Positions 30,444 through 35,169 of a DNA stretch of 35,169 bases are shown one piece after another (within the stretch, counting starts at the first letter, position 1; each line of letters opens with the position of its first letter). The stretch comes from Ghiorsea sp. (GTDB lineage: Bacteria; Pseudomonadota; Zetaproteobacteria; Mariprofundales; Mariprofundaceae). The position numbers and the translations under genes are program-made. The notes beneath the pieces are model-generated. The model was not told the origin of the DNA and searched no databases. It saw only the letters and a list, made by a program, of their open reading frames with translations. The DNA lies in the NCBI GenBank assembly GCA_027055255.1, contig JALUNK010000084.1:1-35169 (forward strand). Direction: 5' to 3'.

Positions 30444-31001
30444 ATGTCAAAAAAGGCAGAAGTAGACCAAGCACAAGCTGCAGAAGTGGGTAATGTTGAC
30501 CAAATACGTGATATTATCTTTGGCTCACAAATGCGCGATTATGAACAACGTTTTGCCCGCCTTGAAGAGCGTGTTTTAAACGAAGCTGACTCACTTCGTA
30601 ATGAAACCAACCATCGCTTAGAGGCATTGGAAGAGTACATCAAGCAGGAAGTCAGCAGCCTTGTTGACCAAGTTGCAAATGAGCGTGGTGAGCGTGAAGA
30701 AGACACGCGTCACTTGACCGGTGAATTATCAAAAAATGCTAACGAGACCGATAAAAAAATATCACAAGTCCAAGAGAAACTAACCCAAAACTCAGGTGAT
30801 TCTAGGGACGCTTTGCTTGAGCAATCTAAAACATTGCTCGCTGAAATCCAAAATGTTCGCACCACACTCAATGAGCAAATGAATAAATCAACGGATGAGC
30901 TTGCCGATAGCAAAACAGACCGTAGAGCTTTGGCTGATATGTTTAGTGAAGTCGCCCTACGCTTAAATGGTGAGTTCAAACTTCCTGAAGGAAAAAAATA
31001 G
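30444..31001 (+). CDS. Coiled-coil protein of unknown function, first gene of putative signalling operon
   Basis: 185 aa, Glu/Gln/Lys/Asn-rich heptad-like sequence. GGAGGG Shine-Dalgarno just upstream of ATG. Confidence 0.8.
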   Translation: MSKKAEVDQAQAAEVGNVDQIRDIIFGSQMRDYEQRFARLEERVLNEADSLRNETNHRLEALEEYIKQEVSSLVDQVANERGEREEDTRHLTGELSKNANETDKKISQVQEKLTQNSGDSRDALLEQSKTLLAEIQNVRTTLNEQMNKSTDELADSKTDRRALADMFSEVALRLNGEFKLPEGKK

Positions 31002-31025
31002 TAGCGCACTCATAAAGTCCTTGCC

Positions 31026-32684
31026 ATGAGTGCTAACTCAAACCCAAACAACGAAGCAGCTATGCAAGAGCTTCGCAAACTCTTATTTGAAAAAGAGTCT
31101 GTTCGCCTTGATGAGCTTGAAAAACTATTGCTCGACCAAAAGTTGCATGCTCAAGAAGTGGCTAAAGTTTTGGCTGAGGCAGTTGACATACGTAACCAAC
31201 AAGATGAAGAACTAGGCAAATCATTAGCACCAACCATTGAAAAGTCGATTAAAGAGTCCATTGCCAAAGATCCAAAGTCACTATCGGATGCATTATTCCC
31301 AGTGATGGGCCCTGCCATCCGTAAGTCCATTAACAATTCTATTGCCGAAATGTTACAGTCCTTGAATCAAACCTTAGAAAATTCTTTTTCCGCACAGGGT
31401 CTAAAGTGGCGACTTGAAGCATTACGCACAGGGAAACCTTTTGCTGAAGTCGTTATGCTTAACACCTTGGTATACCGCGTTGAACAAGTCTTTTTGATTC
31501 ATAAAGAAACAGGCTTACTGCTTCAACACTTATCCTTTGACCCATCGCTAGATGAAGATGCAGATATCGTTTCTAGTATGCTTACAGCAGTGCAAGATTT
31601 TATCCATGATTCATTTTCTGGCAGCACTGACCAAGGCATCGAAAACTTGCGCATGGGTGACCTAGAAGTGATTATCGAAAGTGGGCCAGGTAGCGTTTTG
31701 GCTGTGGTTTGCCGAGGCAATACTCCCCGTTCTTTTAATGAAAAAATTCAAGAAACTATCGAACACATTCAACAAACATTTAATAAAGAACTTAAAGATT
31801 TTAATGGCGATACTGAACCCTTTCTTGGCTTGGATGAATATCTACAACCTTTATTGGTATCCGACTTCAAAGGTGATGATGACAAAAAAAAGAAAAAGTC
31901 TCCTATCAAAGCTATCCTTGTTGTTGCACTTATATTGATCGCATTCTTGGGCTGGTGGGGCCTTGAAGAAGCTGAGCAACAACAAGCCCAAGCCAACTGG
32001 GATAAATATATATCACGCCTGCAAACTGAAGAAGGAATTGTGATATCCAATATTCAAGAGGATGAACAAGGTTATACTATTCTTGGGCTACGAGACCCTT
32101 TAAGTATTGACCCATACAGCTTATTATCTGAATATCATATTGATTCAAAGGTTAATTTTTTGATGCAGCCTTACCATGCGCTACAAGAGCCATTAATCTT
32201 AAAACGCGTTGCTCAATTGTTGCAACCACCCAAATCCATTCAACTAAGTATGAATCATGGCACATTAACCATATCGGGCGTTGCATCGAATACTTGGCTA
32301 TCACAAGCTGAAAAAGCAGCACTTTATGTGGCAGGTGTGGAAAATGTTGATAGCAGCCAAGTTTCTGTGCTGAGTAGTGTGTTTGAAACACCGCAAAACG
32401 ATGATATCAAATTAGACAACTCTCTTTCAAGCCAACCCAAAAAGACCATTCATCGTAACAAAAGAAAAATCGTGAAAAAAGCTAGTGACTCAGATATTTT
32501 AAAACGCGCTATCAAACTACTCAACCCCCCTCCCACTATAGAGATGATCTACGCAAAAGGTGTCCTATATGTATCAGGAAAAGCATCCAAAAGTTGGATA
32601 GCTTTTGCTCGCGAAAATTTTGATAAAATTGCAGAAGTAGAAAGCTTCAACACCTCAAACTTTACAAGTAAAGGTATCCAGTGA
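31026..32684 (+). CDS. Single-pass membrane protein with cytoplasmic N-domain and BON/OmpA-like periplasmic repeats
   Basis: 552 aa. KKKKKSPIKAILVVALILIAFLGWW TM preceded by basic residues (positive inside). Two similar C-terminal units: RVAQLLQPPKSIQLSMNHGTLTISGVASNTWLSQA and RAIKLLNPPPTIEMIYAKGVLYVSGKASKSWIAFA. Confidence 0.8.
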   Translation: MSANSNPNNEAAMQELRKLLFEKESVRLDELEKLLLDQKLHAQEVAKVLAEAVDIRNQQDEELGKSLAPTIEKSIKESIAKDPKSLSDALFPVMGPAIRKSINNSIAEMLQSLNQTLENSFSAQGLKWRLEALRTGKPFAEVVMLNTLVYRVEQVFLIHKETGLLLQHLSFDPSLDEDADIVSSMLTAVQDFIHDSFSGSTDQGIENLRMGDLEVIIESGPGSVLAVVCRGNTPRSFNEKIQETIEHIQQTFNKELKDFNGDTEPFLGLDEYLQPLLVSDFKGDDDKKKKKSPIKAILVVALILIAFLGWWGLEEAEQQQAQANWDKYISRLQTEEGIVISNIQEDEQGYTILGLRDPLSIDPYSLLSEYHIDSKVNFLMQPYHALQEPLILKRVAQLLQPPKSIQLSMNHGTLTISGVASNTWLSQAEKAALYVAGVENVDSSQVSVLSSVFETPQNDDIKLDNSLSSQPKKTIHRNKRKIVKKASDSDILKRAIKLLNPPPTIEMIYAKGVLYVSGKASKSWIAFARENFDKIAEVESFNTSNFTSKGIQ

Positions 32685-33172
32685 TACAAAAAAAAATATG
32701 TGTGTTGGGTGCAGCTGGTGTTGGGAAAACCAGTTTAACCGCTCAGTTTGTTTACAGTAAATTCTCAGATAAGTATCTATCCAGTATGGGTGTTAAGATT
32801 GACAAAAAGGTTATTGATATAGATAACACACAAGTCAACTTGATGATTTGGGATGTGCATGGTGAAGAGAAGTATAAAAAGATACCGACCAGCTACCTGC
32901 GTGGCTCCTCTGGTATTCTCATGGTGATTGATGGCACTCGCCCCGATACAGTTACCGTTGCTAAAGACATTCATCAACGTGTTCGTGATGAACTGGAAGA
33001 AGTACCCATTATTTATTTACTCAATAAGTCTGACTTACAAGATGCTTGGAGCATTCATGATGGCTTGATACAAGAACTGGAAAGCTCTAATCGACCTGTC
33101 TTCTTAACCAGTGCCAAAACGGGAACCAACGTTGAGAATTCTTTCACGGCCATCGCCAAAGCCATGTTATGA
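32681..33172 (+). CDS. Ras/Rab-like small GTPase
   Basis: P-loop GAAGVGKTSL, switch II-like WDVHGEEKYKK, NKSD and TSAKTG. 163 aa; GTG start overlapping the upstream TGA (GTGA). Confidence 0.9.
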   Translation: MIQKKICVLGAAGVGKTSLTAQFVYSKFSDKYLSSMGVKIDKKVIDIDNTQVNLMIWDVHGEEKYKKIPTSYLRGSSGILMVIDGTRPDTVTVAKDIHQRVRDELEEVPIIYLLNKSDLQDAWSIHDGLIQELESSNRPVFLTSAKTGTNVENSFTAIAKAML

Positions 33173-34188
33173 GCAAAGCAGTAATACCCGAACGCATAAA
33201 CCAATGGCTGGCTACAAGCCAACTAAACAATTTATCTCCTGCTTGGATTCAACTTGAAAAAGGTACTGCGCTTGTTCAATCAGTTGATGGTGCATGGACT
33301 GTCTACTTTGAAAACAAACCAACCCTGCAAACTGAGGCATCCGTGGTCTGCGATGTTCTGCAAGGTATGTTGCCTATTCAAGAACCTTTTGAACTTCCAC
33401 ATATACAACTTAAGGATGACCAATACACCGACATTATTGCACTTGAAGATAAAACATGTGATTGGTTATTATTCCTCAATGTCACCCAAAAGGTTCTCGA
33501 GCTTCAACAATACCAACAAGCCGCTAATGAACTTCATTTACTTAAAGATCAACTTGATAGAACACTAAGCAGACATGTCGGTCAAGAAATAGCACAACTT
33601 GCTATCGATGGCGATATACAGCTAAAAAGTGATGGTGAACGCAAAACAATAAGTACATTGTTTGTCGATATTCGTGGCTTTACCAATTACAATGAAAAAG
33701 TCGATGCACAGGAAGTCATGAACACACTCAATGCCTACATGCATGAAATGTTACAATCCATTCTTGATAACCATGGCATCATCGATAAAATTATGGGTGA
33801 TGGTATTATGGCAATATTTGGTATCGTAGGCTCTGAAAATACACATGTTGAAGATGCTTTTCAAGCAGGGCTAACCATTCAGCAACGTATTCTAGCACTC
33901 AATAAAAAACGCAGACAAAACAAACAAGAAGCCTTGGGCGTTGGTATAGGCATTGCAACGGGTGAAGCAGTACTTGGCATCCTAGGCTCACATGAGCGTC
34001 GTGCATTCACTGCAATCGGTAAACATGTCAACCTTGCAGCCCGATTAGAATCAAATGCGCGCGCCGGTGAAATTTTATTGGATCAAGTCACACTAAACAC
34101 CTTAAAAAGGACACCCAAACATCACATGGTCAACTTAGAACTCAAGGGGATTGGTAAAGTTGATGTCTGCATCGTGGCATTGAACTAA
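33169..34188 (+). CDS. Class III adenylate/guanylate cyclase
   Basis: TLFVDIRGFTNYNE, DKIMGDGIMAIFG, GVGIGIATGEAVLGILG, FTAIGKHVNLAARLES. ATGA overlap with the GTPase stop. Confidence 0.92.
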   Translation: MSKAVIPERINQWLATSQLNNLSPAWIQLEKGTALVQSVDGAWTVYFENKPTLQTEASVVCDVLQGMLPIQEPFELPHIQLKDDQYTDIIALEDKTCDWLLFLNVTQKVLELQQYQQAANELHLLKDQLDRTLSRHVGQEIAQLAIDGDIQLKSDGERKTISTLFVDIRGFTNYNEKVDAQEVMNTLNAYMHEMLQSILDNHGIIDKIMGDGIMAIFGIVGSENTHVEDAFQAGLTIQQRILALNKKRRQNKQEALGVGIGIATGEAVLGILGSHERRAFTAIGKHVNLAARLESNARAGEILLDQVTLNTLKRTPKHHMVNLELKGIGKVDVCIVALN

Positions 34189-34874
34189 ACGTCTAAAACA
34201 TCACCAAGGTATAAGTTTACATTTGTCATGTTCAAAAGATAACCTGCATCAGTTTGTTTCAGGATATTGATCTGAACCAGTTTTTTAAGCTCGCGCGTTA
34301 CTGATTCACGTTGGCAGCTCAGCAATTTGGCCATCATTGCATGGCTTGGAAGATTAATGAATATTTCGCCAGACTCTAGATCATCACCCACTTGTTCAGC
34401 CAACGACTTAAAGTAATAACATAGCTTCATACCGATGTTCGGCTGACTCAAACGACATACAACTTCATGTGTTTTGAGATAACGAAGAAGAAAGTGAGAA
34501 GTTAACTTTTGTAAAAAAATACAATCTTTCATCTTTTCTTTAAATTCATCATTCCCAATTTCTAACAAACAAGATGCTGACGTAGCCACAACTGTTGCTG
34601 TACGAATATTTGAATCAAACATGGCAAGCTCACCAACCAAGTCACCTTCTTTAAGTTGATAGAGTAATGTTTCATGACCAGAACCCGCAATCAGTCGAAC
34701 ATCCAAACGACCACTCTTCACCAAATAACAGTGCTTTTTAGCGTTATCCCCTTCATAGAGAAACACATCACCTTTTTTTAACCAAATTTCTTTTGTTCCT
34801 TGGAAATCTGTACTTTCAAATCGTTTATCTAATTTCATATTAATGCTTTCCATAAACCCTGTAATCAATGTCAC
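34185..34874 (-). CDS. Crp/Fnr-family regulator with cNMP-binding-type domain
   Basis: GELAMFDSNIRTATVVAT resembles a phosphate-binding cassette. C-terminal LPSHAMMAKLLSCQRESVTRELKKL winged HTH. True start may be 34841 (MKLDKRFE). Confidence 0.88.
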   Translation of the reverse strand: MTLITGFMESINMKLDKRFESTDFQGTKEIWLKKGDVFLYEGDNAKKHCYLVKSGRLDVRLIAGSGHETLLYQLKEGDLVGELAMFDSNIRTATVVATSASCLLEIGNDEFKEKMKDCIFLQKLTSHFLLRYLKTHEVVCRLSQPNIGMKLCYYFKSLAEQVGDDLESGEIFINLPSHAMMAKLLSCQRESVTRELKKLVQINILKQTDAGYLLNMTNVNLYLGDVLDV

Positions 34875-34942: not shown

Positions 34943-35169
34943 ATGATGCCGCTGAAAATAGGAGAAAACGTGATTTTATTAGTAGATGATGATGCAGACG
35001 TTCTAGAAACATGCCAATTTGTATTAGAAGCGGCTGGTTTCCATGTTATTCCTTGCACTTCAGGTGCTGAAGCCATCAAAGTATTCCACACCTATGAAGA
35101 TGAAATCAACACCGTCATAACTGATTATAAAATGCCTGAAATCAATGGGTTAGAACTCATCCAAACGCT
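34943..35169 (+). CDS. Response regulator receiver-domain protein, 3' truncated by window edge
   Basis: VILLVDDDADVLETCQFVLEAAGFHV...VITDYKMPEINGLELIQT with phospho-acceptor Asp in TDYKMP. AAGGGGG upstream of ATG. Confidence 0.88.
   Translation, partial: MMPLKIGENVILLVDDDADVLETCQFVLEAAGFHVIPCTSGAEAIKVFHTYEDEINTVITDYKMPEINGLELIQT

Follow-up and report, generated by a model that had tools for sequence, protein, structure and literature searches.

A window of 35,169 nucleotides from Ghiorsea sp. (contig JALUNK010000084.1 of assembly GCA_027055255.1, positions 1 to 35,169) hosts a compact gene cassette, in which a Ras-like GTPase gene is directly followed by a class III nucleotide cyclase gene. 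The source is a draft genome of 1.99 Mb in 234 contigs, related to Ghiorsea and to further members of the Mariprofundaceae (Zetaproteobacteria). Four open reading frames (ORFs) are found on the + strand, and encode in order a coiled-coil protein, a membrane protein, the GTPase and the cyclase. The first two are separated by 24 nucleotides; the membrane protein stop and the GTPase start overlap in a GTGA (32681-32684), the GTPase stop and the cyclase start in an ATGA (33169-33172). A Crp-like ORF on the - strand converges on the cyclase, and overlaps its end by 4 nucleotides. An earlier note on this DNA had reported the four same-strand ORFs with their gap and overlaps, as well as the overlap of the cyclase 3' end with the Crp-like gene, and all were found again at the same positions. 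The features are the following, each with its basis in brackets.

30444..31001, + strand: coiled-coil protein, cytoplasmic, 185 residues, with the N-terminal motif IRDIIFG (ORF, Pfam, neighbourhoods).
31026..32684, + strand: membrane protein, 552 residues, with a cytoplasmic N-terminal region, one transmembrane helix and periplasmic BON-like repeats (ORF, Pfam, homologues).
31395..31814, + strand: conserved domain of the membrane protein, residues 124-263, predicted longin/roadblock-like, conserved as far as Nostoc (model, Foldseek, profiles).
31899..31958, + strand: predicted inner-membrane helix, residues 292-311, SPIKAILVVALILIAFLGWW (sequence).
32223..32369, + strand: BON-like repeat, residues 400-448 (Pfam BON at E 0.005, below cut-off; repeats in homologues).
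32681..33172, + strand: Rup (Ras-like) small GTPase, 163 residues (Pfam Ras, alignment, tree).
32849..32866, + strand: GTPase G3 motif WDVHGE, lacking Gln61 (alignment).
33169..34188, + strand: class III nucleotide cyclase, 339 residues, predicted adenylyl cyclase (Pfam, residue alignment).
33169..33618, + strand: output adaptor of the cyclase, residues 1-150, a PAS-like domain followed by a signalling helix (found only beside Rup GTPases).
33517..33519, + strand: Q117, the invariant glutamine of Group 1 Rup outputs (alignments; PMC4316618).
34185..34874, - strand: Crp-like regulator, a convergent, lineage-restricted accessory gene (Pfam, residues, neighbourhoods).

Group 1 Rup GTPases have been described as lacking the G3 glutamine and residing in a four-gene neighbourhood (Wuichet and Sogaard-Andersen, 2014; PMC4316618). 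In it a coiled-coil protein and a protein that combines a domain called unknown with a transmembrane segment, often also with OmpA, are encoded next to the GTPase and an output protein. Outputs are typically GGDEF/EAL proteins or histidine kinases, and their N-terminal region includes an invariant glutamine; class III cyclases are not mentioned in the main text of that paper (PMC4316618). As of 2014 no Rup protein had been characterised (PMC4316618), and no later reports on Rup function were found in the literature searched, most subscription journals being outside its reach. Judged from gene content and sequence motifs, the window cassette is a Group 1 Rup system featuring a class III cyclase as a new output variant. 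The cassette is therefore not without precedent; it corresponds to the published neighbourhood, the cyclase being one exchangeable output.

The GTPase is a small, single-domain protein (Pfam Ras, 6e-32). Motifs G1, G4 and G5 are intact. G3 reads WDVHGEE, where a glutamate replaces the catalytic glutamine, a residue absent in all nine aligned GTPases. In a tree built here, distinct from the published Rup alignment, the protein groups with the GTPases of alphaproteobacterial, gammaproteobacterial and cyanobacterial cassettes, the deep order being unsettled. GTPases of the zetaproteobacterial cyclase, alphaproteobacterial cyclase and gammaproteobacterial GGDEF-EAL systems form separate and well-supported groups, whose branching order is similarly not settled.

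The first ORF encodes a coiled coil, for which Pfam gives only non-specific coiled-coil matches. The same profile was found in the loci of other lineages. The coiled-coil neighbour of Group 1 Rup genes is present in the window. Close to the N-terminus nearly every lineage features a motif fitting R-x-[ILV]-[ILV]-F-G, located in the window at 30507-30524; among 249,024 residues from other ORFs there are 4 occurrences of the strict pattern. A similar, looser LR.LLF/LLG segment is found at the N-terminus of the membrane protein (31074-31091). The two segments may be a common docking peptide, recognised by a common docking partner.

The neighbourhood was surveyed in 399 Pseudomonadota genomes, at a GTPase profile cut-off of E 1e-20 or better, and in 72,556 plasmid records; the sole representative outside the Pseudomonadota is Nostoc (plasmid). 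The profile matches 48 of the 399 genomes, 31 of which are Mariprofundaceae. Gene order and strand are kept in the 31 GTPase-bearing zetaproteobacterial genomes, some loci being split by contig ends. The same holds for alphaproteobacterial, gammaproteobacterial and cyanobacterial (Nostoc) loci, while the output domain varies. Gene order recurs far above chance. A class III cyclase follows the GTPase in all 31 GTPase-bearing Mariprofundaceae genomes, in seven alphaproteobacterial genomes that were sampled (G182, G561 and five of group g52) and in rhizobial plasmids. In the plasmid of Mesorhizobium sp. WSM1497 the products are named in RefSeq OmpA family protein, Rab family GTPase and adenylate/guanylate cyclase domain-containing protein. 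GGDEF-EAL outputs are found in Alteromonadaceae and relatives, histidine kinases in two f50-family genomes, in the alphaproteobacterial genome G510 and in Nostoc. Two Mariprofundaceae (G053 and G054, loci L108 and L110) host a second Rup GTPase; the next gene encodes an HD-GYP protein whose N-terminal adaptor is of the Rup type, and such outputs are not named in the main text of Wuichet and Sogaard-Andersen (PMC4316618). No adjacent output was found at four divergent loci (L093, L099, L100 and L105; a coiled coil is present in most) and at one Alteromonadaceae-group locus.

Some loci deviate from the common organization. Locus L119 (G005, contig C178) has two tandem Rup GTPase genes, and then one cyclase. 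The Ghiorsea genome G031 has two cassettes, and their cyclase N-termini score identically. In one (L054, contig C20) several stops break the GTPase frame; in the other (L041/L130, contig C4) the membrane protein is divided between two ORFs.

The cyclase catalytic domain (Pfam Guanylate_cyc, 7e-24) keeps all the active-site residues, the metal-binding D167 and D211, the purine-specifying pair K207/T281, and the transition-state residues N288 and R292. Pairs of the K207/T281 type are known in bacterial adenylyl cyclases, and the enzyme is predicted by its residues to be one of these. Residues 1-150 have no match in Pfam, or by sequence in the PDB. The AlphaFold model of this adaptor (predicted local distance difference test, pLDDT, 83) is PAS-like according to Foldseek (E about 7e-4), and Q117 is placed close to the start of a long helix running into the catalytic domain. 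Q117 is kept in all the aligned Rup-linked cyclases, and EAL, HD-GYP and histidine kinase outputs have a glutamine at the equivalent position. By hhalign the cyclase adaptor matches both those of the alphaproteobacterial cyclases (98.7%, E 3e-16) and that of a histidine kinase output (96%, E 3e-9). GGDEF-EAL and HD-GYP outputs have in common a second adaptor subtype (98.6%), and the two subtypes align weakly, around the invariant-glutamine helix (E 0.011).

In the genomes and plasmid records searched, the association of adaptor and GTPase is exclusive. An independent search for the adaptor in the 399 genomes gave 38 matches in 36 genomes; in 38/38 the GTPase gene immediately precedes, and no GTPase-negative genome has a match. 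These counts are not independent, owing to shared ancestry, and the pattern nonetheless covers Zeta- and Alphaproteobacteria. Three matches were obtained in the plasmid records, all with an adjoining GTPase gene. The earlier note had named co-conservation of GTPase and cyclase as a point on which its proposal could fall; the proposal is supported on this point, the adaptor never being found away from the GTPase in either collection. The 7 other cyclases of the same genome that were used in the tree all lack the adaptor. The catalytic domains of zetaproteobacterial and alphaproteobacterial Rup cyclases are far apart, on long separate branches. Since a single clade is not rejected by the approximately unbiased (AU) test (p 0.29 and 0.40), one recruitment of the cyclase into Rup systems and several are both possible.

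The membrane protein has in Pfam one weak BON match (E 0.005, below cut-off) and no roadblock or longin match. Homologues carry C-terminal BON repeats, an OmpA peptidoglycan-binding domain, or both. Ahead of modelling, the pattern of strands and helices in the conserved cytoplasmic region had led to the expectation of a longin/roadblock-like fold; in the AlphaFold model residues 148-257 have the element order b-b-a-b-b-b-a. The best PDB matches found by Foldseek are longin and roadblock proteins, namely AP sigma, TRAPP, Mon1-Ccz1, Ragulator, Asgard roadblock and MglB (E 2e-4 to 2e-3), and many of these are regulators or binding partners of small GTPases. Comparison by hhalign with 20 bacterial roadblocks gave a collinear 93-column match (P 0.0019, probability 15%), while 9 control profiles all had P of at least 0.25. 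A sequence search of the N-terminal region against PDB chains detected nothing beyond chance-level Bcl-2/BAK helix matches (E at least 0.04). The conserved domain likely has a longin/roadblock fold, as the model and its Foldseek and profile matches suggest; the proposal is new for the domain that the 2014 Rup description called unknown. Separate genes of the roadblock/LC7 family are found in the same genome (G000, contigs C114 and C136; L134-L136), unlinked to the Rup operon.

The Crp-like protein matches Pfam cNMP_binding (1.5e-18) and, at the C-terminus, HTH_Crp_2 slightly below the Pfam cut-off. The equivalents of the E. coli cAMP-contact residues Glu72, Arg82, Ser/Thr83 (as threonine), Arg123 and Thr127 are kept, and Ser128 is replaced by histidine. 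The earlier note had counted the gene as a member of the cassette. Adjacency is confined to three genus groups, and orientation varies, being mostly convergent in g1, convergent or upstream co-directional in g4, and downstream in g8; in the neighbourhoods surveyed the gene is not adjacent in g2, g11 or Alphaproteobacteria. A role as core component was on this ground ruled out, and the protein is at most an accessory reader, because the adjacency is lineage-restricted. No shared palindrome fitting a Crp-type operator was apparent in alignments of the Crp/response-regulator intergenic region or of the region upstream of the cassette. At 34943-35169 (+ strand), divergent from the Crp-like gene, the first part of a response-regulator receiver protein is encoded, and several relatives feature a short ORF at the same site.

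The best explanation of these data, which we hold to be fairly probable, is that a Group 1 Rup GTPase switches an adenylyl cyclase by means of a longin platform and a PAS-like adaptor. An envelope or periplasmic cue would act on the single-pass membrane protein at its BON/OmpA part. The cytoplasmic longin/roadblock-like domain and the coiled-coil protein would form a platform setting the nucleotide state of the GTPase, acting as a guanine nucleotide exchange factor (GEF) or as a GTPase-activating protein (GAP). One GTPase state would bind the N-terminal PAS-like adaptor and helix of the cyclase, and so switch the synthesis of cyclic AMP (cAMP). In some Mariprofundaceae the neighbouring Crp-like protein would read cAMP, and convey the signal to a regulon.

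Several observations weigh against this explanation. The window membrane protein has the conserved domain, the transmembrane helix and BON-like repeats, and lacks OmpA. Its AlphaFold model has moderate confidence (mean pLDDT 58 overall, about 50-85 in the domain), the hhalign probability of the roadblock match is 15%, and Pfam gives no roadblock or longin match. The cyclase of the cassette is one of several of class III in the genome (8 further matches), hence the Crp-like protein need not read this one. Output-less loci encode the membrane protein and the GTPase, most of them also the coiled coil, and the GTPase may have other effectors, since several divergent loci have no adjacent output.

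Control could also run in the opposite direction. The cyclase would be located upstream or work as a scaffold, its PAS-like adaptor and glutamine being a GAP that completes the catalytic site of the GTPase; the main effect of the output protein would be to switch the GTPase off, and cAMP would be a parallel product. A GAP role for the invariant glutamine of the outputs was advanced as a speculation in 2014 (PMC4316618). It would account for a GTPase devoid of Gln61 along with one glutamine kept in all outputs, but Q117 is close to the start of the helix that follows the PAS-like domain, where conserved residues are often structural, and systems with the same GTPase and no output exist. Moreover, to judge from Ras mutants, a Gln61-to-Glu change need not stop hydrolysis. 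We consider this alternative rather unlikely.

Alternatively, the GTPase might mainly place the cyclase at the envelope, in a scaffolding or polarity role of the MglA type, without gating its activity. MglA, which is regulated by a roadblock protein, works in cell polarity; a positional role would fit the coiled-coil and peptidoglycan-binding parts, and a docking module the unrelated output enzymes. Conserved G motifs, however, imply a cycling switch, and PAS-plus-helix adaptors directly preceding catalytic domains usually transmit conformational signals. Localisation without gating is in our opinion unlikely. A chance cluster of signalling genes with no joint function is scarcely credible, as contradicted by linkage across four bacterial lineages and by the exclusive adjacency of adaptor and GTPase.

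Switching of the cyclase by the Rup GTPase would make the operon a bacterial counterpart, open to testing, of the control of adenylyl cyclase by Ras. It joins a Ras-like GTPase with a candidate regulator domain and with an enzyme that is easy to assay, and since cAMP is a simple read-out, Rup function can be tested in it directly. Should the longin/roadblock assignment be right, the domain becomes a candidate for the regulator still missing for Rup GTPases. This would tie the closest bacterial relatives of Rab and Ras to the fold that regulates eukaryotic Rab and Rag GTPases and bacterial MglA, which bears on the origin of GTPase-longin/roadblock pairs. More tentatively, Rup systems as a whole might be a modular bacterial G-protein platform, made up of a transmembrane receptor with a built-in longin/roadblock regulator, a Ras-like GTPase, and a plug-in PAS-like adaptor for cAMP, cyclic di-GMP or phosphorelay outputs. 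Were this so, bacteria would possess a Ras-adenylyl cyclase pathway whose receptor includes a fold of the TRAPP/Ragulator type.

Among known systems, the cassette shares with Group 1 Rup loci the coiled coil, the transmembrane protein with the unknown domain, the GTPase with a glutamine-less G3 and the output with the invariant glutamine (PMC4316618). Published outputs are typically GGDEF/EAL proteins or histidine kinases, and OmpA is often present (PMC4316618). The window output is a predicted class III adenylyl cyclase, and BON-like repeats, not OmpA, form the end of the window membrane protein. CyaC and CyaB (PDB 2w01, 3r5g) provide solved catalytic domains among the closest to that of the cyclase, with complete catalytic residues, but their N-terminal regulatory domain is not that of the window protein. 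MglA/MglB and the actinobacterial conservons similarly combine a small GTPase, a roadblock-fold partner (predicted here) and a link to membrane signalling. They differ in that the GTPase belongs to another family; in the window, the predicted roadblock/longin-like domain resides within the membrane protein, and there is no CvnA kinase. In yeast, the Ras-like GTPase Ras is paired with Cyr1, a class III adenylyl cyclase. The leucine-rich-repeat Ras-association region is not found in the window cyclase, which has a PAS-like adaptor, and GTPase and cyclase are encoded in one operon. The likeness to yeast Ras-Cyr1 is one of logic, not of homologous wiring.

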